A stretch of 64,000 nucleotides of DNA, from positions 372,001-436,000 of the forward strand of contig NZ_CP037895.1 of NCBI RefSeq assembly GCF_004634385.1, written 5' to 3'. The notes beneath the pieces are model-generated. The model did not search any database. It was not told where the DNA came from and saw nothing but the letters and a program-made list of their open reading frames with translations. Position 1 is the first letter of the stretch; the number at the start of each line of letters is the position of its first letter. A program made the position numbers and the translations under genes. Source of the DNA: Thermaerobacter sp. FW80 (GTDB taxonomy: Bacteria > Bacillota > Sulfobacillia > Thermaerobacterales > Thermaerobacteraceae). Of the stretch, positions 6,831-47,066 are shown in pieces.

Positions 6831-8323
6831 CCGCCGGCACCCCCGTCGCCGGCCGAACCACCGGTCGCCTCGGCGGCCGCCGGGCCAGGCGCCCCGGGCC
6901 GGCGGCCAGCGCCCAACAGCTCGCCGGCCGCCGCCACCACCGCCTCCACGCCGATGGTGGCCATCGCCTCGCAGCGACACTCCGCCGCCTGCAGGTAGGC
7001 GAGGGGGCCGTTGAGCCAGCGCACGCAGCGGCGGCCCCGCAGGCATGGGCCCACCAGCACCCGGTGCCGCGGGTCGAGGGGAGCGAAGTGCCGCGGCTCG
7101 GAGGGGCCGAAGAGGGCCACCACCGGCGTGCCCACGGCGACGGCCATGTGCAGGGGGCCGCTGTCGTTGCCCACCATGAGGTCGACCCGCTCCAACACCG
7201 CCGCCGTCTCCAGGAGGGCCAGGCGTCCCGTCAGGTCCAGCAGCGGTGCCCGCTGGACCCGCTCCCGGATGGCCGCCGCCAGCGGCACGTCGCCGGGGCC
7301 GCCGACCAGGACCACCCGGGCGCCGTAACGCTCCGCCAGGCGGTCCGCCAGCAGGGCGAACCGATCCACGGGCCAGCGCTTGGCGGGGAAGTGGTCGGCA
7401 CCCGGGTGCAGGGCCACCACGGGCCCGTCCCCCGGCAGGCCGGCCAGCAGCGCCGCGGCGCGGCCGCGTTCGTCCGGACCGGTGACCAGCTCCATCTCCA
7501 ATCCACAGGGCGCGCAACCGAGGCGCGCCACCACCTGGAGGCAGTACTCGATGGCGTGGAGCTCCCGGTCGGGCGCGGTGCCGCCGAGGGCGGCCAGGCG
7601 GCGCCAGGGCCAGCGCCAGGCGCGCTCGGTCCCCCCGTCATCCGCCCGGCCGAAGCGCCGGCGCAGGTGGACGGAACGGCCCACCGGGGTCCCGCCGAAC
7701 TCTGCACCCCCACAGCCCTCCGTCGCCCCGCGTCCGTGCCGAGCCCACCACCCCTGGACCGCCGCGACCGGACCCGGCCCTGCCGGCGGTCCGACGAGTC
7801 GCCAGCGACGGCCGCCCGCCACCGGCAGCCGTCCCAGGGACGCCCGCAAACCCGTCCGTCGGTCGGCGGATCGCGCCGCACCCCTGGCGGGGGGCAGCCG
7901 ACCGGGACGGCGGAAGCGGCCGAGACCATGGAAGCCCACCCGCACCCGGGCGCGGAAGAAGGGCGTCACCCAGCTGCCGAAGTGGGACAGGCCGACGCCG
8001 ATGTCGAAGCGCCGGTCCAGCATCCGGACGGTGGACAGGGCCAGGTCCCAGGCGCCGGGGCAGGCCACCACCTCGTCCAGGTGCGGGTTGTGGCGCAACA
8101 GCGGCTCGTTGGCGGTCCAGCACAGCGCGGTGATGTGGGCGCGCGGGAAGTGCCGCCTCAGGGCACGCAGGGCCGGGGTGGCGAAGAGGGTGTCACCCAG
8201 CGGGCAAAGCAAAACGACCAGGATGTCGGGAGCCGCCCGGGTGCCGTCCGGTATCCCGTCGGCACCGGTGACGTCCCGGGAGGATGCCTGCGAGGATGCC
8301 GGCAGCGTCCGGCGCCCCGTCAT
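6827..8323 (-). CDS. Glycosyltransferase family 9, heptosyltransferase-like
   Basis: 498 aa GT-B enzyme, predicted to transfer heptose from ADP-heptose to a glycan acceptor at the cytoplasmic face. The N-domain starts at DILVVLLCPLGDTLFATPALRAL; the C-domain holds ALHPGADHFPAKRWPVDRF and the family motif GNDSGPLHMAVAVGTPVVALFG. Between the lobes an Arg/Gly/Trp-rich insert of roughly 100 residues has no counterpart in ordinary family members. ATG 8323 has GGAGGT 7 nt upstream; the GTG at 8332 lies inside that ribosome site and is rejected. It is the first gene of a coupled operon with rfaE1, rfaE2 and terC. In a Gram-positive the acceptor would be a surface glycan or S-layer, not lipid A. Confidence 0.85.
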   Translation of the reverse strand: MTGRRTLPASSQASSRDVTGADGIPDGTRAAPDILVVLLCPLGDTLFATPALRALRRHFPRAHITALCWTANEPLLRHNPHLDEVVACPGAWDLALSTVRMLDRRFDIGVGLSHFGSWVTPFFRARVRVGFHGLGRFRRPGRLPPARGAARSADRRTGLRASLGRLPVAGGRRWRLVGPPAGPGPVAAVQGWWARHGRGATEGCGGAEFGGTPVGRSVHLRRRFGRADDGGTERAWRWPWRRLAALGGTAPDRELHAIEYCLQVVARLGCAPCGLEMELVTGPDERGRAAALLAGLPGDGPVVALHPGADHFPAKRWPVDRFALLADRLAERYGARVVLVGGPGDVPLAAAIRERVQRAPLLDLTGRLALLETAAVLERVDLMVGNDSGPLHMAVAVGTPVVALFGPSEPRHFAPLDPRHRVLVGPCLRGRRCVRWLNGPLAYLQAAECRCEAMATIGVEAVVAAAGELLGAGRRPGAPGPAAAEATGGSAGDGGAGG

Positions 8324-25442: not shown

Positions 25443-25574
25443 GCGGCCCGGGGGTCCGGTCGCGGCACCGCCGGTCCGCGCATCCACCCCGCGGCCCGAG
25501 GGCCCGCGCCTTCCCAGACCGGCCCGCTCCCGCTACCATGGGACTAGCCGAGCCCTGACGAAAGGATGGGGAGC

Positions 25575-26396
25575 GTGACGTCCAAGTCGACCCCGCCGCC
25601 GGGCGCGGACCGCAGCCGCCACCGCGGCGCGGCGGCCGCTACGCCGTCCAGCGGGCGGCGATCCGGTCCCTCCGCGCGCCTCGCCTCCCGGGAGGCGGAG
25701 GCCCGTCGGCGGCGCCTGCGCTGGCTGACCCTGGGGACCGCCGCGGTGGTGGTGCTGGCCGTCGCCCTGGCCGTGGCCGCCACCCGTCAACCCGAGCCCG
25801 GCGAGGGCGCCGTCCCCGCCGACGTGTTCCAGTTGGAGCGCCAGCCGATGCTGGGGTCGCCCGACGCCCCGGTGACGGTGGTGGAGTTCGCCGACTTCAA
25901 GTGCCCCTACTGCCGGGACTTCACTCTCCACGAGTTCCCGCGCTTCAAGGCGGCCTACGTCGACACCGGCAAGGTGCGCTTCTACTTCATCAACTACCCC
26001 TTCATCGGACCCGACTCGGACACCGCCGCCGAGGCGCTGGAGGCGGTCTACGCCCAGGACCCCGAGGGCGCGTGGGCCTTCATCGAGCGGGTGATGCAGC
26101 GCCAGGGTCCGGAGGACCAGCAGTGGGCGACGCCCGAGTTCCTGGTCGAGCTGGCCCGCGAGGCCGTACCCTCCATCGATGCCGAGCGGCTCGCCGCCGA
26201 CCTCCGGGCCCGCCGGTATCGGGACGAGGTGGAGGCGGACCGGGCCATCGCCCGCCAGGTGGGGGTGCAGGGGACGCCGGCCATCTTCGTCGACGGCCGG
26301 TTCGTCGACGACTGGTCCTTCGAGGGCCTGCAGGCCGCCGTCGAAGAGGCGCTGGCCCGGAGGCAGGGCGGCGCCGCCCCGGGCGACGCGGAGTAG
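25575..26396 (+). CDS. DsbA-family thiol-disulfide oxidoreductase, membrane-anchored (BdbD-like)
   Basis: 273 aa. A basic N-terminal tail of about 55 residues precedes one membrane helix (TLGTAAVVVLAVALAVAA), and the catalytic domain lies outside. The thioredoxin-like domain begins at MLGSPDAPVTVVEFADFKCPYC; CPYC is the redox centre. A helical insertion follows, then VGVQGTPAIFVDGRFV, whose cis-Pro follows Thr as in DsbA. It should oxidise paired Cys in exported proteins and be re-oxidised by the DsbB-like protein encoded 310 nt downstream. GTG 25575 is preferred because AAAGGA precedes it at 8 nt; ATG 25566 overlaps that site. Confidence 0.88.
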   Translation: MTSKSTPPPGADRSRHRGAAAATPSSGRRSGPSARLASREAEARRRRLRWLTLGTAAVVVLAVALAVAATRQPEPGEGAVPADVFQLERQPMLGSPDAPVTVVEFADFKCPYCRDFTLHEFPRFKAAYVDTGKVRFYFINYPFIGPDSDTAAEALEAVYAQDPEGAWAFIERVMQRQGPEDQQWATPEFLVELAREAVPSIDAERLAADLRARRYRDEVEADRAIARQVGVQGTPAIFVDGRFVDDWSFEGLQAAVEEALARRQGGAAPGDAE

Positions 26397-26708: not shown

Positions 26709-27200
26709 ATGCGCCGGTTCTTCCAGATCTACGGGCTCTATCTGGCGTGGGTCGTGGCCACGGTGGCGACGCTGGGGAGCCTCTACTTCAGCGAGGTCCT
26801 GGGCTTCGTCCCCTGCGAGCTCTGCTGGTGGCAGCGGATCTTCATGTATCCGCAGGCGCTGCTCCTGGGCCTCGCCAGCTACCGGGACGACCGCCGGATC
26901 ATCCCCTATCTCCTGCCGCTGAATGCCGCAGGCGGGTGCATCGCGGCCTTCCACTACCTGCAGGAGCAGGTGCCCGGGTTGCGCCTGCCCGTCTGCGGGG
27001 CCGACGCCCCGTGCTTCACGCCCTGGATCGACTGGTTCGGGTTCATCACCATCCCCTTCATGGCGCTCACCGCCTTCACCCTGATCCTGATCTGCCTCGG
27101 GCTGGCCCGGTCGGCGGCCGACGCGGCGGACGAACCGGCCCCGGCTGGCGCCGGGGAGGGGCCCCCGGCAGGCACCGGCGAGTGGGGGGACACGCCCTGA
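26709..27200 (+). CDS. DsbB-family disulfide oxidoreductase (BdbC-like)
   Basis: 163 aa, four-helix membrane protein that passes electrons from DsbA-type proteins to quinone. The first extracytoplasmic loop has the CxxC pair in FVPCELCWWQRIFMYP, with the conserved Trp and Arg just after. The second pair is in LPVCGADAPCFTPW. Helices occur around 8-28, 38-55, 65-82 and 110-132. The C-terminal 30 residues (AADAADEPAPAGAG and onward) are low complexity and are encoded by an exact GGACGAACCGGCCCC. ATG 26709 has GGAGGT just upstream. It is convergent with the CopD-like gene, 15 nt apart. Confidence 0.9.
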   Translation: MRRFFQIYGLYLAWVVATVATLGSLYFSEVLGFVPCELCWWQRIFMYPQALLLGLASYRDDRRIIPYLLPLNAAGGCIAAFHYLQEQVPGLRLPVCGADAPCFTPWIDWFGFITIPFMALTAFTLILICLGLARSAADAADEPAPAGAGEGPPAGTGEWGDTP

Positions 27201-27215
27201 GGGATCCTGGCGACG

Positions 27216-29147
27216 TCAACGGTCCCGGGGATCGAGGCGGCGGATGAACCGGATCACCGCCCAGCGCTCCTCCTCCGTGAGGACGTCCTCGAAGGCCGGC
27301 ATGGCGGTGCCCTCGATGCCGTGGGTGATCCACCAGTAGAGGTCGCCGTCGGTGTGCTGCCGTACGTGGACGCCGGTCAGGTCGGCGGGTGGGGGCAGCA
27401 TGCCCGCCGCGGCCGGGCCGTCGCCCCGTCCCTCGGGCCCGTGGCAGGCGGCGCAGTGGGTCTCGTAGACGCGGCGGCCCTGCGCGACGACCGCCGGGCT
27501 GTCGGGCAGCGGGTTGGGCACGTACGTGGTGGGGTAGGCGTCGATCCAGGCCACCTGTCCCAGGAGCCAGGCGGCCAGGGCCAGGGCGATCAGGCCCGCC
27601 CCGAAGGGGATCGGCCACAGCCGCCGCCACCCGATGGCCACCAGGGCCGCCGCCTCGACCAGGCCCAGCAGGGCCACCGTCGCCTGGATCGCCCCGCCCG
27701 TCGACTGGAAGGCCGCGCGCAGGCTGAGCCGCCCCTGACGCTGGTTGCCCGGCGCACCCGCCGCCTCGAAGTCCGTGGTCACCGTGGCCTGGGCCCCGTT
27801 CTCCAGCGCCAGGGTCCACGTGAGGCGCCAGAGCCCCGGCATGGGCAGCACCGCGCGGGCCTCCAGGGTCCCGGTGCTCCCCGCGCCGCGATCCGCCGGC
27901 GGGCTCAGGGCGATCTGATACAGGCCCATGGGGTGCTCGGGCATGTCCAGGCGCACCAGCCCGCGGGCCAGCGGCACCCGGCCCAGCGACCGGGCGGAGA
28001 GGGTCACGGCCCCGCGCTGGCCGGGCTGCAGCGCCAGTTCCACCGGTTCGCCGCCCACCTCGGCCCGCCAGGTGACCGGTTCCGTGGCCGCGGCGGGGCG
28101 ATCGGCCGGCGGCAGCACCGCCAGGATGCCGGAGGCCAGGAGGACCGCCACCGCGGCGACGGCCTCGGCGCGAACCAGGCGCCGCACCACGACGGCCGGC
28201 CGGCGACCCGCCGCCGGCGGCGGGTCGCCGGCGCCCCCCGCCCCGTGCCCCGCGCCGACGGCATCGGCCGCGTCGCGGCCCGGCCCGTCGGCGCTCCAGG
28301 CACCCGCCCCGCCCAGCGCCCCGCGGCGACGCCTGGCGCCTCCGGTCCGGCGCGTGACCGCCCCGGCGGCGCGCTCCAGCCACGGCCGCAGGGCGAAGAG
28401 GTTGACCGCGGCGATGGCCAGCAGCACGGCCACCAGGGCCAGCTTGGCCAGCAACGCCTGGCCGTAGGGGCTGCGGATCAGGGCGTCGGCGCCGTAGAGG
28501 TTGCGCCGGGCGGCCAGGATGCCGCTGACGGCTGTCGCCAGGACGGCCAGCGCCCCCAGATCGGAGAAGCGACGGATCAAGGCGGCCAGGACCCGCGGCG
28601 ATCCCAGCTCCCCACGGTGCTCCAGCGCACGCCAGTCCAGGAGCGCCAGGCGCAGGAGGCCGCCGATCCAGAGGGCGACCGCCGCCACGTGCAGGCCGTC
28701 GACCACCAGCGCCGAACCGCCGCGGATGCCGGCGTGGCTGTTCCACACCACCGCGGCGACGGCGGCGAGGGCCACCAGGACCCACGTCCGGCCCGCCGGC
28801 AGCCCGCCGGGCCAGCATCGCCAGGCCAGGACCGCGCCAGCCAGGCCCACCGCCGCCTGGATCAGGGCCGCGCGCCCGGCGTGGGTGCCCACGAGGAACC
28901 GGCCCAGCGACGCGGGACGGGCCTGGGTGAGCTCCCACGCGGCGACCACGGCCGCCGCCAGGGCGCTGGCGGCCAGCAGGAGCCCGCCCGTGACGGCCAG
29001 GCGGCGGCTGCGCCGGGCGTGACCCGGCCCCGGGTCGAGCCCGGGGCGGCCGCGGAGGATCCAGCCGTCCAGGATGGCGGGCCCGGCGAGACCCATCAGG
29101 CCCAGCAGGCCGATCCAGCGGAGGATTCCGGCCGCCAGCTCGGGCAC
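27216..29147 (-). CDS. CopD-family copper protein fused to a C-terminal cytochrome c domain
   Basis: 643 aa. The N-terminal 270 residues form about eight membrane helices of the CopD type, including GLHVAAVALWIGGLLRLALLDW with a His likely to bind copper, and RFSDLGALAVLATAVSG. After an Arg-rich linker and further helices comes an extracellular beta-rich domain (about 340-500), two helices, and a cytochrome c domain (about 550-643): VAQGRRVYETHCAACHGPEG carries the CxxCH heme site and GTAMPAFEDVL the Met ligand. Such fusions suggest copper handling tied to respiratory electron transfer; the actual role is inferred. GTG 29147 has GGGGGAGGGG upstream. It follows copC in the same operon after a 61-nt gap. 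Confidence 0.85.
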   Translation of the reverse strand: MPELAAGILRWIGLLGLMGLAGPAILDGWILRGRPGLDPGPGHARRSRRLAVTGGLLLAASALAAAVVAAWELTQARPASLGRFLVGTHAGRAALIQAAVGLAGAVLAWRCWPGGLPAGRTWVLVALAAVAAVVWNSHAGIRGGSALVVDGLHVAAVALWIGGLLRLALLDWRALEHRGELGSPRVLAALIRRFSDLGALAVLATAVSGILAARRNLYGADALIRSPYGQALLAKLALVAVLLAIAAVNLFALRPWLERAAGAVTRRTGGARRRRGALGGAGAWSADGPGRDAADAVGAGHGAGGAGDPPPAAGRRPAVVVRRLVRAEAVAAVAVLLASGILAVLPPADRPAAATEPVTWRAEVGGEPVELALQPGQRGAVTLSARSLGRVPLARGLVRLDMPEHPMGLYQIALSPPADRGAGSTGTLEARAVLPMPGLWRLTWTLALENGAQATVTTDFEAAGAPGNQRQGRLSLRAAFQSTGGAIQATVALLGLVEAAALVAIGWRRLWPIPFGAGLIALALAAWLLGQVAWIDAYPTTYVPNPLPDSPAVVAQGRRVYETHCAACHGPEGRGDGPAAAGMLPPPADLTGVHVRQHTDGDLYWWITHGIEGTAMPAFEDVLTEEERWAVIRFIRRLDPRDR

Positions 29148-29208
29148 GCCGCACCCCTCCCCCGATGGCGCTCCCGCCCCGTCGCCGGCGGTCGCCGCGG
29201 TCGTCCCC

Positions 29209-29922
29209 TCACCGCCGGGTGCGACGGCGCAGGGTCATGAGGCCGGCCGCCAACGCGGCGACGACGGCCACCGCCGCCGCCCACAGCCACCGCGGTGTGC
29301 CACCGCCTGGCGGCGCCGGCTGCGGCGAGGCCGGGGGGGCGGCACCGCCGGGTTCGTCCGGCTCGGCCGCCGGCGGAGCGGGCTGCTGATCGGTGGTCCC
29401 CGCGCCCGGTGACGGCGCCGCCGCCGTCACGGAGAAGGGCACCTCCCCCTCCACGGGGTGGCCGTCCTGGGAGAGCACGCGGTAACGCAGGACGTAGTCG
29501 CCCGCGGGCATGGGACCGCGGACCTCGGCGCGCAGGGTCTCCCCCTCCGCCCGCACCGGCCCCAGCTCCACCGCACCGCCGCCCTCGCGGCTCAACGTGA
29601 GCTCGCTGAATTCGGCCTCCACCGGCTCCGAGAAGGTCAGCGCCACCTCCCGCGGCGGCTCCTCGAGGCGGGCTCCCCGCTCCGGCTCGCTGCCCACCAG
29701 GGCGGCGTGGGCCTCGGCCCGCCCGGTTCCGAACCCCGCGGCGAACCCCGCCACCACCAGCAGGACCGCCAGGCCGGCGGCGGCCCGCAGGACCGCGCCT
29801 GCCCATGGTCTGCGCCGACAGCGCGGCGGGCGCCGCGACCCGCCGCCGGTGCCGCCGTCGCCCGACGCCACCCTCGCTCCCGTCGGGCAAAGACCCGGGG
29901 CTCCGATGATTCCGGTGATCAT
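29209..29922 (-). CDS. CopC-domain copper-binding protein, exported and C-terminally anchored
   Basis: 237 aa. A long N-region with twin-Arg-like basic stretches (SRRPPRCRRRPW) leads to a hydrophobic signal segment (AAAGLAVLLVVAGFAAGF) ending at AEAHAALVGSEPERGARL, so the mature CopC domain would begin with the His used for Cu(II) in known CopC. The second His is in VLSQDGHPVEGEVPF. A Pro-rich linker with AAEPDEPGG and a C-terminal helix (WLWAAAVAVVAALAAGLMTL) anchor it, as in Gram-positive YcnJ/CopC proteins. ATG 29922 has GGGGAGGG upstream. The next gene, a CopD fusion, is its probable membrane partner. Confidence 0.87.
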   Translation of the reverse strand: MITGIIGAPGLCPTGARVASGDGGTGGGSRRPPRCRRRPWAGAVLRAAAGLAVLLVVAGFAAGFGTGRAEAHAALVGSEPERGARLEEPPREVALTFSEPVEAEFSELTLSREGGGAVELGPVRAEGETLRAEVRGPMPAGDYVLRYRVLSQDGHPVEGEVPFSVTAAAPSPGAGTTDQQPAPPAAEPDEPGGAAPPASPQPAPPGGGTPRWLWAAAVAVVAALAAGLMTLRRRTRR

Positions 29923-30469
29923 GACAAGCCCTCCCCTCGCGGTCGCGGGCCGACGGGCCCGTCGCCGTCCGGATCGGATCCCGGCCCCTCCCGCGGTCCC
30001 CTGCCCGTCCCGGGTCGCCCCGTTCCCGGAGCCTTCCCGTCGCCGGGGGAATCCATGGGTGGACCGGGGTGCCGCTCTCCACCGGCATAGCACAACGGCC
30101 GGCGCCCTCGCATCGGGGGCCGACCCGGGGCCGGGGCCGGCCGCCTCGGGCCGGGCATCGACCCGTCCGCCACCACCCCGACCCCGGGCCGGGGAGTGCG
30201 ATGCGCAGGGGATCGTCGCCCCGCCACCCCGGTCCGGAGACGTGACCCGCGCAGCCGCCCTCCTCCGCAGCGGTGGGTCCCGCCCGCCCCCGGGGAGCGA
30301 CCCCGCCGGATCGCCCTCGCAAGCCGCGCAGCCCGTCCTCGTCCCGGCAGCCACCCGCCCCGCCCGGTCCACGCCGTCGAGGACCGCCCCGCCCGTCCCC
30401 GCCGCGAGAGCCCCTCGCCCTGTCCTCCCTCCGGGAGCCCCGCCCCTCGCCGCCCGGCCTGGCACCGCG
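29923..30469. other. Intergenic region upstream of copC, no gene supported
   Basis: About 550 bp between the propeller stop and copC start, both minus strand. Frames crossing it in either direction lack ribosome sites and domains. It presumably includes the copC promoter, but no clear -10/-35 pair is visible in this G+C-rich stretch. Confidence 0.4.
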
Positions 30470-32194
30470 TCATGCGGGGTCCGCCTCGTCGCCGGGCGGG
30501 TCGCCGCCGGCAGCGCCTGCCGGCGACGAGCGGCTCGCCCACCGGCGCGCCCGCTCGCCCCGGATCCCGGCCAGCACGCCGATCCAGCCCACGGTCAAGG
30601 CCCCCACCAGGGCACCGAAGCCGGCCAGGGTGGCCCACGGCAGGGCGGCCTCCGGCGCCACCTCGAGGCGCACGGTGCGGGTGACGACCCGTCCGTCCCC
30701 CAGGCGCGCCGCCACCACCACGGGGTAGACCCCCGCCTCCGCCCCGCGCTCCACGACCAGGCGCACCCGCGCCGCCCCGGGGCCGCGTTCCTCCCACCGG
30801 GCCTGCCAGCCGCGGGGCAGGTCGGCCACCTCCCAATCCACGCGGCCGCCCCCGATGCGCTGCGGGTCCACCAGGGCGAGGCGCACCCCCACCGTCGCCC
30901 CCGGCGCCACCCGCACCGCCTCCGCCGTGGCCGCGAGCTGCACCAGGGGCAGGGCGGCGGGATCCGCCCGGCCCACGTAGTCGCGGCCGTAGGCGGCGAA
31001 CCAGAGGGCGCCGTCCGGGGCCCGGGCCAACCACTGGACCCACGTCTTCGGCTCCGTCGCCGGGAAGGGGAAGAGCTCCAACGTCGCGCTGGTGGGATCG
31101 ATCCGCGCCAGGGCGTTGCCGGTGTGCAGCGCCACCCACAGGCGGCCCTCGGCGTCCCACTCCAGGTCGTTGGGACGGGTGGCCTGGATCTCCTCGCCGG
31201 GCGGCGCCGGCGGCGTCAGGAGCGGCACCCAGGCCCGCGTCGCCACGTCGAGCCGGCCGATGGTGCGGCCGCCGTGCTCGGTCACCCACACGCCGGTGCC
31301 GTCCGGCGTCACCGCCACCCCCGCCGGTCCCGCCACGTCGGGCGGCAACGCGAAGGACGCCCAGGTCGCGTCCCGCGGGTCGAACCGGTACACGGTGCCG
31401 GTGCGCGGGCTGACGGTCCACAGCCGCCCGTCGGCGTCCCGGTCCAGGTCCCAGGTGGAGGGCCACGGGTGCTCGGGCAGCGGCATCCTGTGCGTCTCCA
31501 CGCGGCCCGTGGCCGGGTCCAGCCGGGCCAGGCGGTTGCCCTGGAACTGGATGACCCAGACCCCCTCCCGCGTCGGCAGGGCCGCCGAGGCGCCGGCGAA
31601 GGGAAGCGGATAGGCCCGCCACCTCCCCGACGCCCGCCCTCCCCCGGGGCCGGCCCGCGCCGCGGCCGGCTCGTAGCGGTAGAGCACCGCCGGGGGATCC
31701 TGGCCGAAGTCGTTGTCGGTCAGCCACAGGGCGCCGTCCGGCCCGGCGGCCAGCCGGGCGGGTTGCCTCACCGCCGGCGGGAGGTCGACGAACCGCCACC
31801 GGCCCGTGACCGGGTCCAGGGCGCCGAGCCGCCGGGTCCCGGTCAACGTCACCCATACGGTCCCGTCGGGCGTCACCGCCAGGCTCCAGGGCTGGCTCCC
31901 CGCCGGCAGCGGGTAGCGTCGGAACCAGGACCCGTCCCCGTCCCGCGCCACCGCGGGTCGCGACAGGACCGCGAGCAGGACGGCGGCCACGACCACAGGC
32001 CCCAGGGGCCGCAGGGCGCCCAGGGAACCGAGGGTCCGCAGGCCCGTGGGGCCGCGGCTCGATGGCGCCCTGCGCCACGGGCGCAACCCGTCGGGCGCCC
32101 TGCGCCACGGGCGAAACCCCTCGGGCACCTTGCGCCACGGGCGCGACCCGACGTCCCTGCACCGCATCCCCGTCGCCGCCGTTCCGGCTGTCAT
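30470..32194 (-). CDS. Membrane-anchored streptogramin lyase-like beta-propeller protein
   Basis: 574 aa. The start region has three 10-residue repeats (RPWRRAPDGL-like), then a signal/anchor helix (PLGPVVVAAVLLAVLSRPAVA). Outside follows a propeller of repeated blades with a consensus such as VTPDGTVWVT, AGPDGALWLTDN, RDADGRLWTVSP and EWDAEGRLWVAL; these resemble virginiamycin B lyase/SMP-30-like propellers. An Ig-like domain (about 420-510, VRVAPGATVGVRLALVD) and a C-terminal helix (TLAGFGALVGALTVGWIGVLAG) end it. Catalytic residues of Vgb could not be verified, so an enzymatic role is not claimed. ATG 32194 is the best start, though its ribosome site is distant; ATG nine codons later is possible. 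Confidence 0.7.
   Translation of the reverse strand: MTAGTAATGMRCRDVGSRPWRKVPEGFRPWRRAPDGLRPWRRAPSSRGPTGLRTLGSLGALRPLGPVVVAAVLLAVLSRPAVARDGDGSWFRRYPLPAGSQPWSLAVTPDGTVWVTLTGTRRLGALDPVTGRWRFVDLPPAVRQPARLAAGPDGALWLTDNDFGQDPPAVLYRYEPAAARAGPGGGRASGRWRAYPLPFAGASAALPTREGVWVIQFQGNRLARLDPATGRVETHRMPLPEHPWPSTWDLDRDADGRLWTVSPRTGTVYRFDPRDATWASFALPPDVAGPAGVAVTPDGTGVWVTEHGGRTIGRLDVATRAWVPLLTPPAPPGEEIQATRPNDLEWDAEGRLWVALHTGNALARIDPTSATLELFPFPATEPKTWVQWLARAPDGALWFAAYGRDYVGRADPAALPLVQLAATAEAVRVAPGATVGVRLALVDPQRIGGGRVDWEVADLPRGWQARWEERGPGAARVRLVVERGAEAGVYPVVVAARLGDGRVVTRTVRLEVAPEAALPWATLAGFGALVGALTVGWIGVLAGIRGERARRWASRSSPAGAAGGDPPGDEADPA
32071..32160. repeat. 30-bp tandem repeat, three copies, at the 5' end of the propeller gene
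   Basis: Units at 32071, 32101 and 32131 each begin TGCGCCACGGGCG and encode RPWRR-type 10-residue repeats ahead of the signal anchor. The third copy diverges in its second half. Confidence 0.85.
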
Positions 32195-32489
32195 GGCCGA
32201 TCCCCGCCTCCGCCTCCTCCATGGCCGGCCGCCGCCCCGCCTCCGGCCCCGGACGGCCTTCCCGCCGCCCCCGCCGGCCCGACGGCCGGGAGCCGCAACG
32301 GGGCCCCGGCCGCGACGACCCGAGGCCCGATCCCGAAACGAGCCCCCGGCCCGCACCCCCAGGCGGGCCGGCGGTCCGTTGGCACCGGCCGCGCCCTCCG
32401 TCCCTCCGAAACCTATCTCCAGGGTAGCGCACCGCCGGGAGGGTCGCGCGCCGCCGTGCGGCGCGCCGCGAGAAGGCGAGAAAAGCAAA
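32195..32489. other. Spacer between cold-shock gene terminator and propeller gene
   Basis: About 300 bp on the 5' side of the propeller gene. It should contain its promoter; GATAGGTTT near 32420 on the minus strand is the only A+T-rich patch. No gene is seen. Confidence 0.35.
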
Positions 32490-32513
32490 GGCGCCGCACC
32501 AACGTGCGGCGCC
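32481..32513 (-). terminator. Intrinsic terminator of the cold-shock gene
   Basis: GGCGCCGCAC, loop CAAC, GTGCGGCGCC (32490-32513): a perfect 10-bp stem. On the minus strand it is followed by TTTGCTTTTC, the clearest U-tract in the window. It lies 22 nt past the cold-shock stop. Confidence 0.9.
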
Positions 32514-32535
32514 CGCGGGCTTCCGGTGCCTGGAC

Positions 32536-32736
32536 TTACAGAACGATGACGTTCTGGGCCTTCGGCCCCTTCTCGCCCTCGACGACGTCGAAGGTGACCT
32601 TCTGGCCCTCTTCCAGGGTCCGGTAACCGGTGCCGACGATCGCGGAGAAGTGGACGAAGACGTCACCCTGGCCATCGTCGCGGGTGATGAAGCCGTAGCC
32701 CTTCTCCGCATTGAACCACTTGACTGTCCCGGTCAA
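32536..32736 (-). CDS. Cold-shock protein (CspA/CspB family), TTG start
   Basis: 66 aa single-domain RNA chaperone. [20 protein letters not shown] contains RNP1 (KGYGFI), and DVFVHFSAI is RNP2; the five-strand fold is complete to the C-terminal QNVIVL. Start TTG 32736 is deduced because the family begins exactly here and GGAGGT lies 8 nt upstream; no ATG or GTG fits. The surrounding long open frame up to 34143 is a shadow of the neighbouring gene. It forms its own unit ending at an intrinsic terminator, and a leader of unknown length may give cold or growth-phase control. Confidence 0.95.
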
Positions 32737-33122
32737 ACCGCGGATACCTCCGTACAGATGATGAGACTCGCTAGCCGGGACGCTCCCGGGATCCCGCCCC
32801 GTCGGCGGCGGGTGCCGGCTCCCCGCTGCCCCCGATGGCCGGGTCCTGGTCGCGACGGTGAAGCCCGATCGTCGAGACCGGCCTACCGAACGGCTAACTG
32901 GAGGTAGTGTACCACGTCCCGCGGTCCCGCAAAAGACCCCTCGCCGCCGATTTTCGCGCCCCGCCCCCCGTCGCCGGGCCCTCGGCCGCCGCCCACCCGC
33001 CACGCCGCTTGGCCGCCAACGGAACGGCCCGCGCCGACCCCGATCCCGCGACGTCCCGTCCGGCCGGTCGCGGCTGCAAGCCCGCGGGCCCAAGCGGTCA
33101 ACGCCGGCGCCCGCTCCATCGC
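32737..33122. other. Intergenic region upstream of the cold-shock gene
   Basis: About 390 bp between the NDH-2 stop and the cold-shock start. The A+T-containing part (32740-32780 and 32895-32945) probably includes promoter and leader; GGTACACTACC near 32905 on the minus strand is the likeliest -10 area. No gene is seen. Confidence 0.4.
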
Positions 33123-43997: not shown

Positions 43998-45680
43998 CTA
44001 ACGGGCACGAAGGCCGTTGGCGACGGCCAGTAGCTCACTCACCTCGTGAGCGGCAACGGCCAGCGTGACACCAAGCCAGCCTGTCAGCGCGCCCGGGATC
44101 AAGATCGCCAGAACGGCTAGCGAGAAGATGATGTTTTGGCGGCTGATGGCACGCGCCCGGCGCCCCAGGCGGACAGCGTAGGCCACTTTTCTCAGATCGT
44201 CGGCCATCAGGGCGACGTCGGCGGCTTCGATCGCGGCGTCGGTACCCGCGGTGCCCATGGCCATCCCGACCGTGGCAGCGGCTAGGGCCGGCGCGTCGTT
44301 GATGCCGTCGCCGACCATGATCACACCGCCATACTCTTCAGCCAGCGCCTTCACGATCCTCGCCTTATCGTCCGGCTTCAGTTCCGCCCGGACATCGTCG
44401 ATGCCAAGTTCCCGGGCGATGGCGTTCGCCGTCCGCTGATTGTCGCCGGTTAGCATGATGAAGTGCTCGATACCCGCTTCGCGCAATGCCTGTAGAGCGT
44501 CTTTTGCCTCGGGCCGGATCTCATCGCGGATGGCCAGCAGCCCCTTCACTTCGTCATCGGTGCCCACGAAGACGACCGTATGCCCGCTGTCCCGCAGCTC
44601 GTCGATCTTGTCCGACAGCTCCGCGGGGACCCGGGCTCCCAGCTGTTGAAAGAGAGCGGGGCTCCCAACATAGAGGCTCACCTCGCCGACCACCGCCCTG
44701 GCCCCGGCTCCGGGTAGAGCCTGAAAGTCCCCGGCCTCGGGTACCTCGATCCCTTCATTCTGGGCCTTGGCCATGACGGCTCGGGCCAGGGGGTGCTCGG
44801 AGAAACGCTCAATCGCGGCCGCTCGCGCCAGCACTTCCCGCTCCGTCCATCCGGGCGCTGCGACAATGGTAGTCACCACGGGCTCTCCGCGCGTCAGCGT
44901 TCCGGTCTTGTCGAGGGCCACTGCGCGGACCGTGCCGAGGTTCTCAAGATGGATGCCCCCCTTGATGAGCACGCCGTTCTTGCCGGCTGTACCGATGGCG
45001 GAAGCCATGGCCACGGGCGTCGACATGACAAGGGCGCAAGGTGCCGCTGCTACCAGGAGGACCACAGCGCGGGTGGCCCAGGTCGACCAGTCGAGACCGA
45101 TCAGGGGCGGGAGCAAGACCAAGGCCACGGCTGCAAGCAGGACAACAGGGCTGTAACGCCTACCAAACCGCTCGATGAAGCGCTGAGCCCGCCCTTTTTC
45201 TGATTGAGCCTGTTCGACCAGGCGGATGATCTTGGACAGGGTATTGTCCTCGAAAGTAGCCGTGGCCTCCAGAACAAGGGCGCCCTCACCGTTCACTGTG
45301 CCGGCAAAGACCCGGTCGCCTGGGCCCTTTGCCACAGGCACCGACTCGCCTGTGACCGCAGCTTCGTTAATGCTCGACCGCCCTTCACGAATGATGGCGT
45401 CGGTGGCGATGGATTCGCCCGGCCGCACCAGGAACCGATCGCCCGGTTTCAGGGAGCTCGCCGGCACCATGCGCTCCCGGCCGTTCTCGAGGAGCCGCGC
45501 CTCCTTGGGGGCCAAATCGAGCAACGCCTTGATGGCGGAGCGGGTGCGAGCGAAGGTGTACTCCTCCAGGCCTTCTGCCAGCCCGTAGAGAAAGACAAGG
45601 AAGGCGGCCTCAAACCACTGGCCGAGAAGGACGGCTCCCAGGTCAAGTCCCGAACTGTCTGTAAAAGCGGTCTGGGTCAT
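43998..45680 (-). CDS. P1B-type heavy-metal ATPase, C-terminal part cut off by IS insertion
   Basis: 560 codons. It contains most catalytic elements of a metal-efflux ATPase: actuator SINEAAVTGESVPV, the ion-site helix VAAAPCALVMSTPVAMA (APC where zinc/cadmium pumps often have CPC), phosphorylation site ALDKTGTLTRGEP, the HP signature FSEHPLARAV, and hinge GDGINDAPAL. The first two or so helices are missing: codons 1-14 of this frame come from the IS end, and native sequence resumes at LGAVLLGQWFEAA. The start ATG overlaps the transposase stop (ATGA), so reinitiation could yield this truncated protein. Joined to the fragment at 47403-47076 without the IS it forms one 656-aa pump. Metal specificity (Zn, Cd, Co or Cu) is unproven. 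Confidence 0.88.
   Translation of the reverse strand: MTQTAFTDSSGLDLGAVLLGQWFEAAFLVFLYGLAEGLEEYTFARTRSAIKALLDLAPKEARLLENGRERMVPASSLKPGDRFLVRPGESIATDAIIREGRSSINEAAVTGESVPVAKGPGDRVFAGTVNGEGALVLEATATFEDNTLSKIIRLVEQAQSEKGRAQRFIERFGRRYSPVVLLAAVALVLLPPLIGLDWSTWATRAVVLLVAAAPCALVMSTPVAMASAIGTAGKNGVLIKGGIHLENLGTVRAVALDKTGTLTRGEPVVTTIVAAPGWTEREVLARAAAIERFSEHPLARAVMAKAQNEGIEVPEAGDFQALPGAGARAVVGEVSLYVGSPALFQQLGARVPAELSDKIDELRDSGHTVVFVGTDDEVKGLLAIRDEIRPEAKDALQALREAGIEHFIMLTGDNQRTANAIARELGIDDVRAELKPDDKARIVKALAEEYGGVIMVGDGINDAPALAAATVGMAMGTAGTDAAIEAADVALMADDLRKVAYAVRLGRRARAISRQNIIFSLAVLAILIPGALTGWLGVTLAVAAHEVSELLAVANGLRAR
45632..45640. repeat. Target-site duplication, left copy
   Basis: CGGCTCCCA, identical to 47067-47075, directly flanks the IS. 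The 9-bp length fits the IS256 family (8-9 bp). Confidence 0.9.
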
Positions 45681-47066
45681 GCCACGGTGGCAGCGGGTGA
45701 AACCTCTTTCTGCGCCGCTCTTTGCCGTTGCCGCTCCTCGATGTAGCGCTCCAGCTGCTTTCGTTCGTGCTCGCTGAACTGCACCCGCCGCCAGCGCTCA
45801 CTCGCCCGCCACAGCACGGCGAAGACTAGCTTCAGGCACTCCCGCTCGCTCCGAAACCGCGGGATCACCTTGGCGCGCCGCCGCTCCTCCTCGAAGCTGC
45901 GCTCCACCAGGTTGGTGGTCCGGACATGCTTGCGGTGGGCGGCGGGTAGCCGCAGGTGCGCCAGGCTCGCTTCCAGGTCCTCCTGCAGGCTCCGCATGGC
46001 CGAGGGATACTCCCGCCCGAACCGCTCCACCACCTCGGCCACCAGCCGCCGGCCCTGCTCGATATCCGGTGCGTCCCGGATCGCCTCCAGGTAGGGCTTG
46101 AGCACGGGCCGCGCCTCCTCCGGCACCTTGTCCAGCACGTTCCGCATCTTGTGCACCCAGCAGCGGATGCGCTCCGCCTCCGGCCACATGGCTTCCACCG
46201 CCTGGATCAGCCCCGGCGCCCCGTCCGTCGTCACCGTCAGCGGCGTCTTCAGCCCCCGGCGCACCAGATCCCGGAAGTGCTCCAGCCAGTCCTCGTAGCG
46301 CTCCTTGTTGCCCAGGCTCAGGTGCACCAGCACCTTGCTGCCGTCGCTCAAGATGGCCCAGGTGACCAGGATGCCCTCACGGCAGCCCGCCTGCCGGCGC
46401 AGCGACTCGTAGATGGCGTCGGCGAACAGGTACACCACGTCGAGGCCTGACAGGTCCCGCTGGGCAAAGGCCTCGAACTCCTCGTGGAGCGCCTCGGTGA
46501 TCCGGCTCACGGTGGACCGGCTCAAAAGCGGCGCTTCGCTGCCCGCCAGCTCCGCCAGCGCATCCTCGATGTCCCGGCTAGAGAGGCCCCGGGCGTACAT
46601 CTCCACCACCAGGCGCTCCAGCACGTCCGTCCGCCGCTTGAGGGCCCTCCACAGCGTGGGCTGGCACAGTCCCTCCATGCCCCGCACCTGGGGGACGTCG
46701 ATCTCGAGCCGCCCCTCGGCGCAACGCAGCGTCCGCGGCTTGTAGCCGTTGCGGGCGCCTTCCTGGCCAGGCTCGCGCCGCTCGTAGCGTCCGCGCCCCA
46801 AAAGCTCCGTGACCTCTGCCTCCAGCAGCTCCTGGATGAGCTTGCGGGCGCCCAGGCGGACGAGGGCATGGGTCAGGTCCTCGACCTCCGTACCCTCCCG
46901 GGCCTGCGCGGCCAGCTGCCGGGCCAGCTCCGCCAACTGCTGGCTGGGTGGTATCCTGGACATAGGTCTGGGTCCTCCTCGGTGTGCCCCAGCTGGGGCG
47001 AGTTTTCCGACGCCACCGATGGTAGCCCAGACCGCTTCGCGTTTACAGACAGTTTAGGACGTCACC
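45641..47066 (-). mobile_element. IS256-family insertion sequence, intact, 1426 bp
   Basis: The ends are imperfect inverted repeats of about 25 bp: the left begins GGTCAAGTCC and the right, read inward, GGTGACGTCC; both continue to AACTGTCTGTAAA, with 21 of 25 bases matching. A second block (AGCGGTCTGGG) recurs a few bases further in on both sides. It is bordered by the 9-bp duplication CGGCTCCCA and encodes one complete transposase. Deleting the element plus one duplication copy restores an in-frame ATPase gene, so the insertion is simple and probably recent. More copies are likely elsewhere in the genome. Confidence 0.93.
45677..46963 (-). CDS. IS256-family (Mutator-type) transposase
   Basis: 428 aa, full length, no frameshift. 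The DDE catalytic residues are visible: first Asp in VVYLFADAIYESL, second in LTVTTDGAPGLIQAVEAMWP, Glu in RTTNLVERSFEEERRR. The family C/D-x2-H signature follows the second Asp (RCWVHKMRNVLDKVP). The N-terminal region contains the domain with RNGYKPRTLRCAEGRLEI and VPQVRG typical of the family. ATG 46963 has GAGGAGG upstream. Its stop overlaps the ATG of the truncated ATPase frame. Confidence 0.95.
   Translation of the reverse strand: MSRIPPSQQLAELARQLAAQAREGTEVEDLTHALVRLGARKLIQELLEAEVTELLGRGRYERREPGQEGARNGYKPRTLRCAEGRLEIDVPQVRGMEGLCQPTLWRALKRRTDVLERLVVEMYARGLSSRDIEDALAELAGSEAPLLSRSTVSRITEALHEEFEAFAQRDLSGLDVVYLFADAIYESLRRQAGCREGILVTWAILSDGSKVLVHLSLGNKERYEDWLEHFRDLVRRGLKTPLTVTTDGAPGLIQAVEAMWPEAERIRCWVHKMRNVLDKVPEEARPVLKPYLEAIRDAPDIEQGRRLVAEVVERFGREYPSAMRSLQEDLEASLAHLRLPAAHRKHVRTTNLVERSFEEERRRAKVIPRFRSERECLKLVFAVLWRASERWRRVQFSEHERKQLERYIEERQRQRAAQKEVSPAATVA

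Follow-up and report, generated by a model that had tools for sequence, protein, structure and literature searches.

We propose, with moderate confidence, that two adjacent genes of Thermaerobacter sp. FW80, copC and a gene that fuses copD to coding sequence for a YtkA-like domain and a cytochrome c (copD-cytc), specify a copper-acquisition module of the YcnJ type with a built-in heme; judged from its domains and by analogy with known importers, this heme would exchange electrons with the copper being taken up and probably reduce Cu(II). The two genes lie in a 64,000-nucleotide stretch of DNA (the window; positions 372001–436000 of contig C1, NZ_CP037895.1; about 75% G+C) from a 3.04 Mb genome, next to a gene for a surface β-propeller, and the order of transcription is propeller gene, copC, copD-cytc. 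An earlier reading of the bare sequence (here, the original prediction) had placed these three genes in one direction, and indeed all are on the minus strand, at the coordinates given below, with family scores above the cut-offs. The G+C contents of the three open reading frames by codon position (0.59–0.66 at position 2 and 0.89–0.95 at position 3) are of the coding type. Given the family scores, together with orthologues in two congeners (66–81% identical by segment for copD-cytc, 45–46% for copC and 68–70% for the propeller), chance is excluded for all three genes.

The copD-cytc gene (27216–29147, minus strand) encodes a protein of 643 residues from a GTG start preceded by GGGGGAGGGG. Residues 1–345 (28113–29147) make up a CopD membrane domain with about eight transmembrane helices (PF05425, 59.6 bits against a cut-off of 32.1), in which H138 and H153 are invariant in all 13 aligned fusions and are also present in E. 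coli YebZ. This is followed by a predicted extracytoplasmic β-sandwich, a domain that went unmentioned in the original prediction (residues 358–462; 27762–28076). In particular, the AlphaFold model has eight strands here and a fold match to the Helicobacter pylori copper-resistance protein CrdA (9ll2, E = 5.4e-4). On the homologous sandwich region of two fusions from other families of the same phylum, PF13115 (YtkA; cut-off 25.9) scores 27.5 bits (L164) and 21.3 bits (L163), and the window copy has no Pfam match. The pattern M-x2-H-x-M (M402-x2-H405-x-M407 in the window) can be read in the sandwiches of the window protein, L163 and L164, and suggests a site that would suit Cu(I). Two further predicted transmembrane helices (residues 487–535; 27543–27689), modeled with low confidence (predicted local distance difference test score, pLDDT, below 50), would bring the chain back outside, where it would end in a class I cytochrome c domain (residues 551–643; 27219–27497). 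All hallmarks of this class are present, namely the CXXCH heme-binding motif (CAACH, residues 565–569; 27441–27455), a candidate axial ligand, M616, and matches to PF00034 and PF13442 (the latter at 56.1 bits against a cut-off of 27, over residues 554–635 of 643), which bears out the original prediction that the CopD-like protein ends in a complete cytochrome c. When the whole fusion model (AlphaFold, 10-row alignment; mean pLDDT 70, predicted template-modeling score, pTM, 0.55) was compared with known structures, the top match was cytochrome c552 of Thioalkalivibrio paradoxus (9vr0), which aligned with the cytochrome domain (38% identity; template-modeling score, TM, 0.79 on the target); c552 also ranked first among single-stretch sequence matches (58.5 bits), with a two-domain protein, 6h5l, higher in total score. 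For the membrane part, cytochrome bd oxidase (5doq) was a weak fold match, with a TM of 0.23 on the query. The predicted architecture is thus CopD-YtkA-like-cytochrome c with CopC adjacent, that is, the domains of YcnJ plus a heme domain.

The copC gene (29209–29922, minus strand) lies 61 nucleotides upstream of copD-cytc and encodes 237 residues comprising a signal peptide, a CopC domain (PF04234, 83.6 bits against a cut-off of 23.3) and a C-terminal transmembrane anchor. Its His-brace residues, H72, D153 and H155 in the numbering of the open reading frame, align with those in the structure of the CopC domain of YcnJ (9c14), with H72 opposite His1 and DGHPV paired with DGHPV. Removal of the signal peptide at the probable cleavage site would expose an N-terminal His brace.

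A feature that appears to mark the fused cytochromes is an H-x3-H-x-D motif between the CXXCH and the axial Met. In the window the alignment places it at H594-x3-H598 (27354–27368, minus strand), and it is typical of CopD-linked cytochromes c. All 33 aligned fusions, near-duplicates included, have H598, and 32 of them have H594. In the form H-x3..5-H-x-D/E, the motif occurs in 39 of 42 distinct fused cytochromes, in all three separate cytochromes that adjoin genes for CopC or CopC-CopD (L144, L148 and L149), and in 2 of 15 stand-alone relatives, one of which (L042) is apparently the cut-off end of a fusion; these counts carry no significance test and come from related sequences that are not phylogenetically independent, which lessens their weight for our proposal. 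Three alphaproteobacterial fusions, additional to the 42, also carry this motif. In our own alignment, H594 corresponds to His83 of T. paradoxus cytochrome c552, which in a docking model is the last relay from the Cu2 ion of thiocyanate dehydrogenase (TcDH) to a heme propionate (PMC9456337). Because H594 aligns with this relay residue, an electron path between copper and the fused heme is plausible, in a direction that the motif leaves unfixed. A split version of the arrangement was seen at L144 (6131–9725), L148 (8015–11475) and L149, where a lipoprotein-like H-x3-H cytochrome c, a separate CopC and a CopC-CopD protein are encoded in one row.

These features suggest the following mechanism. 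Exported CopC would capture Cu(II) by its N-terminal His brace and hand it to CopD, in which the two invariant membrane histidines would serve as the entry site, and a Met/His site in the YtkA-like sandwich would favor Cu(I). Sharing this outer face, the cytochrome c at the C-terminus would exchange electrons with the copper via the heme edge at H594/H598. Electrons would most likely flow from a respiratory cytochrome or the quinol pool to Cu(II), such that copper would be reduced either while imported or while passed to Sco/PCuAC for CuA oxidases. The domain architecture, the conserved residues, the presence or absence of the genes as a block and the recurrence of the core are what we observed directly; we infer the heme loading, the heme–copper electron exchange and its direction, and any role that the propeller may have. 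Import activity is ascribed to the module by likeness to the YcnJ and YebZ importers, and it is the literature on these two proteins that describes copper import from CopC to CopD in support of heme-copper oxidases (for YcnJ, PMC13344008). A more far-reaching and tentative possibility is that the fusions represent a widespread class of importer with its own cupric reductase, in which a heme c fed by the respiratory chain would reduce Cu(II) via the H594/H598 edge during the handover from CopC to CopD/YtkA, thereby coupling copper acquisition to electron flow. Whether, where and by what Cu(II) is reduced during import by YcnJ is left open in the relevant passages of two reports, according to which no YcnJ-associated reductase is known (PMC13344008; PMC12362106). 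If true, this possibility would locate the reduction step in CopD-dependent import; an importer-cytochrome c fusion that occurs in three or more bacterial groups and has a largely specific motif offers a concrete candidate for the reductase, with concrete residues.

Surveys of other genomes indicate that the copC and copD-cytc core is recurrent. Among 61 genomes comprising the window's own and those of near relatives, the full fusion was present only in three of the genus, and the 29 matches listed elsewhere had CopD or a cytochrome, never both in one place. In 348 genomes of the same phylum we detected two more fusions (L163 and L164, from two other families), each directly adjoined by a CopC gene on the same strand and neither accompanied by a propeller match. 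Of 301 genomes in the phylum of Thermalbibacter longus (G062; Thermomicrobiota in NCBI, Chloroflexota in GTDB), 160 had a match at 1e-25, and in at least 51 (distinct genomes, counted manually, among the 53 listed matches that reach model position 740) one match ran through to the cytochrome, nearly always starting in CopC; many other matches in this phylum end before the cytochrome, as in YcnJ. All 20 of the 53 spanning frames that we opened contain CXXCH. At least three of 289 genomes in the class of an alphaproteobacterial metagenome-assembled genome (MAG; G065) also encode a CopD-cytochrome fusion. With up to three candidates scored per genome, the fusion counts in the 301-, 348- and 289-genome surveys are lower bounds. 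Because CopC and CopD-cytc are one protein elsewhere and separate genes here, the fusions provide direct evidence that the two work together. The suggestion in the original prediction that copper handling is tied to a heme electron carrier thus describes a real architecture that recurs in the genus, in other families, in the phylum of T. longus and in alphaproteobacteria.

The neighbors of 20 fused loci outside the genus comprised 111 proteins (of 112 open reading frames, a 1,896-residue frame in L133 being excluded) from 75 Pfam families. At one of these loci, L120, positions 7566–8240 (plus strand) encode a protein of about 220 residues that is exported and anchored at its C-terminus, with no Pfam match and with a predicted mature N-terminal His (cleavage between ASA and HEHR...). 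Within the stretches fetched for L120 to L159, homologues of this protein occur at 15 of the 20 fused loci, L120 included, and at 5 of 20 loci with a non-fused CopC-CopD gene; from its sequence, the protein may bind Cu(II) by a His brace in the manner of YcnI and may stand in for DUF1775 in these bacteria. A further locus, L036 (3–5073; a Thermomicrobiaceae MAG), has in one row a CopD-cytc gene that the contig end truncates, genes for PCuAC and SCO1, and one for a second protein that runs from CopC to cytochrome. We considered a linkage of the fusion to SCO and PCuAC as a general rule and rejected it; L036 shows it, and the 25 commonest neighbor families at the 20 fused loci do not.

Within the genus, the propeller gene, copC and copD-cytc are present together in three of four genomes and missing together at the locus in the fourth (G002). 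The whole region is collinear with the window in G001 and G003, from trpS to a major facilitator superfamily gene (gene labels beyond the Pfam-scanned proteins come from reading the translations). In G002, dsbB is directly followed by the csp terminator and csp, such that exactly the three genes are missing, with collinear flanks; neither copD-cytc nor the propeller was found elsewhere in that genome, and copC was searched there only at the locus. The three genes were lost or gained as one block, which extends over about 27201–32488. Over 1,677 aligned positions in seven flanking proteins, 108 positions support the grouping of G000 with G002 and of G001 with G003, and 2 oppose it. Given this grouping, one loss in G002 explains the pattern most simply, unless the root falls on the G002 branch. 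Genes for full SCO1 and PCuAC stand side by side in G000, G001 and G003 (Pfam-checked in G000, where they are about 1.1 Mb from the cassette); that G002, the genome without the cassette, lacks both counts in favor of a copper-acquisition module. The original prediction named a lack of co-occurrence beyond this genome as a ground for its refutation, and this ground does not hold: the set of propeller, copC and copD-cytc recurs in the genus, and copC with copD-cytc recurs outside it, there without this propeller.

Several observations weigh against a copper-acquisition module with an integral heme. The cytochrome would be dispensable for import, since YcnJ and YebZ work without one. The strict motif is missing from three of the 42 fused cytochromes, namely the second copy in L036, L092 and L164, the last a close relative, and the M-x2-H-x-M pattern is absent from the sandwiches of the Thermomicrobiota homologues aligned. 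Outside the genus, CopD-cytc stands beside PCuAC and SCO1 in L036 only; at the 20 fused loci, neither SCO nor PCuAC ranks within the top 25 of the 75 neighbor families, a ranking in which singletons may be hidden. G002 lacks PCuAC and has for the SCO1 family a marginal, partial match only (23.0 bits against 22.8). Because G001 and G003 are 97.9% identical over the flanking-protein positions, this joint loss of cassette, sco and pcuAC among four genomes counts as about one event. Moreover, three heme-copper oxidases with CuA-type motifs persist in G002, which has neither the cassette nor a full Sco nor PCuAC, and the module is therefore not essential for them. The suggestion in the original prediction that the locus could build or feed a copper enzyme agrees with the role described for YcnJ (PMC13344008), but the oxidases of G002 do without the cassette.

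The chemistry, too, can be read in three ways: Cu(II) may be reduced, Cu(I) may be oxidized, or the cytochrome may dock the module to an oxidase or to Sco. Class I cytochromes c typically have a high potential, which may be too high for reducing Cu(II) held in a sub-femtomolar His brace. A high potential would instead favor accepting electrons, and CopC and CopD were first named as resistance proteins; the cytochrome might thus oxidize Cu(I) on the outer face, protecting the surface or keeping Cu(II) available for CopC, with electrons passing to a terminal oxidase. In line with this, c552, the nearest cytochrome of solved structure, takes up electrons from a copper center, in the model via the equivalent His (PMC9456337). 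We nevertheless regard this direction as rather unlikely, because the results for YcnJ speak for uptake when copper is limiting (PMC13344008) and because no Met-rich Cu(I) site is visible in the window's CopC, the only CopC match in its genome. Less probable again is that the cytochrome makes no contact with copper in transit and, in the manner of caa3 oxidases, acts as a tether or electron donor that docks CopCD-YtkA to Sco or to a CuA subunit, allowing new CuA to be reduced or an assembly factor to be positioned at the oxidase. The functional overlap of the YtkA domain of YcnJ with CtaK in CuA assembly (PMC13344008), the co-presence of the cassette with sco-pcuAC in the genus and the row of genes in L036 would all suit such docking; oxidase families, along with Sco and PCuAC, fall outside the 25 commonest neighbors of the 20 other fused loci, and G002 has its CuA-type oxidases without the cassette. 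Electron exchange with copper in transit, probably toward Cu(II), is thus the role that we prefer for the fused heme.

The third gene of the block (30470–32194, minus strand) encodes a genus-restricted, exported, C-terminally anchored protein of 574 residues with a Vgb-lyase-type propeller and an Ig-like domain. It matches PF24684 (Vgb_lyase) with 104.9 bits against a cut-off of 50. A single-sequence model (mean pLDDT 74.9, pTM 0.72) consists of a β-propeller, for which virginiamycin B lyase is the best fold match (2z2p; TM 0.83 on the target), a second β domain whose fold could be Ig-like, and, at the C-terminus, a helix of 33 residues; the anchored, exported propeller with an Ig-like domain that had been called from the letters is thereby upheld. 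Across the three orthologues the only conserved histidines are H307 and H357, and the single Cys is not conserved. The positions of the PHA and PHG histidines of the Vgb homologue 2qc5 are occupied by other residues in the propeller, on a weak alignment; the catalytic His of Vgb is H270, and the structure entry of H270A is titled catalytically inactive. By profile and fold we class the propeller as Vgb-type, and we do not assign it as a lyase. The copper sites of TcDH and nitrous oxide reductase (N2OR) are multi-His, and a copper enzyme of either type was considered for the propeller and rejected: two conserved His and no conserved Cys are too few for such a site, the best fold match is to virginiamycin B lyase, and the copC and copD-cytc core is found elsewhere without the propeller. 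We hold such an enzyme to be very improbable, even though the gene inventory resembles the TcDH cluster of Thioalkalivibrio (PMC5744179), c552, the partner of TcDH, is the cytochrome of solved structure closest to the fused one (PMC9456337) and the propeller occurs only together with the cassette, in three of the four congeners.

Of 154 genomes of the class, 3 have a homologue of the propeller at E ≤ 1e-15; all three belong to this genus and encode it in a block with copC. No homologue was found at the fused loci outside the genus (10, 2 and 20 loci, the last in the phylum of T. longus and searched at E ≤ 0.01), which argues against the propeller as a general component of the system. It is, at most, a genus-specific accessory, perhaps a surface protein for docking or ligand sensing. 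Nearly as likely, and a contender that we take seriously, is that it is an unrelated neighbor caught in one deletion, with only copC and copD-cytc belonging together; a single deletion could take adjacent genes whatever their function, and a gap of 547 nucleotides (29923–30469, minus strand) of non-coding composition (G+C 0.81/0.82/0.81 by codon position) separates the propeller gene from copC, in addition to the lack of a homologue at the fused loci tested. Telling against a mere bystander are the match of the block edges to the three genes, the same-strand order kept in three genomes (weakly informative, given that the whole region is collinear) and the occurrence of propellers of other families near CopC-CopD loci. 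Indeed, PD40 propellers account for 3 and phytase for 1 of the 111 neighbors of fused genes, and BNR for 5 and Cytochrom_D1 for 3 of 117 neighbors of non-fused genes. Two such loci were noted individually: L143 (3499–4653) encodes a protein weakly related to the window propeller, at a distance of 3.4 kb from a non-fused CopC-CopD gene, and L137 (5468–7819) a phytase-type propeller with carbohydrate-binding modules near a CopC-CopD locus.

A terminator scan found no terminator-like site between the propeller gene and copC (29923–30469). It did find a terminator-like hairpin 3′ of csp (32489–32514, minus strand), between csp and the propeller gene and at one edge of the gained or lost block; a comparable hairpin lies 3′ of csp in G002. 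A promoter scan of the locus found none, and an Rfam scan gave nothing above its cut-off, its sole match being a sub-threshold cspA thermoregulator (32485–32759, minus strand; 40.6 bits against 78) that covers the cold-shock gene. On the other side of the block are genes for a DsbA-like thioredoxin (25566–26396, plus strand) and a DsbB-like protein (26709–27200, plus strand); an NCBIfam scan gave a single model above its cut-off, the subfamily model PRK03113, for DsbB. Since dsbA and dsbB are read from the plus strand, with dsbB and copD-cytc convergent, tail to tail, 15 nucleotides from stop to stop, they do not belong to the transcription unit of copD-cytc. The original prediction was right about the adjacency of this pair, and we rejected its inclusion as partners of the system, given the opposite strand and the retention of the pair in G002 without the three genes. 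Elsewhere in the window, a frame at 45677–46963, in a stretch of lower G+C (66% at 44–48 kb), has a printed N-terminus identical to that of a frame at L076 (1539–2825); both are in the window's genome and look transposase-like by eye.

A full-text literature search, outside of which most subscription papers fall, so that absence is unproven, returned no description of a CopD-cytochrome c fusion. We compared the locus with the known systems nearest to it. Virginiamycin B lyase is the best profile and fold match of the propeller; unlike Vgb, the window propeller is membrane-anchored, has an Ig-like domain and, on the weak alignment to 2qc5, does not keep the PHA/PHG histidines. The TcDH cluster of Thioalkalivibrio likewise combines a propeller copper enzyme, copC and copD, with a related cytochrome c552 upstream that has both histidines (PMC5744179; PMC9456337), but there the cytochrome is unfused and TcDH is a multi-copper protein, whereas the window propeller has just two conserved His.

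The closest counterpart of the module is B. subtilis YcnJ, a copper importer with the domains CopC-CopD-YtkA (PMC13344008; PMC12362106). The domain order matches if the split copC is counted, and the CopC His brace and the conserved CopD His are shared (H138 or H153 may correspond to H295 of YcnJ), as, putatively, is the YtkA-like outer domain. The window locus differs in that copC is a separate gene, in that the CopD protein has gained a two-helix hairpin plus a cytochrome c, and in that YcnI (DUF1775) and YcnK are absent among the six locus proteins scanned with Pfam. E. coli YobA-YebZ has the same two-gene arrangement of CopC and CopD, and H138 and H153 are common to YebZ, but YebZ (290 residues) has neither a YtkA domain nor a cytochrome c. 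In Corynebacterium, CtiP is a CopD-CtaG fusion, and CopD is thus again joined to a second domain tied to oxidase copper, with the CopC protein Cg1884 and the PCuAC-type protein Cg1883 encoded in one operon with it (PMC9145763); the partner of CopD in CtiP is CtaG, instead of the cytochrome c found here.

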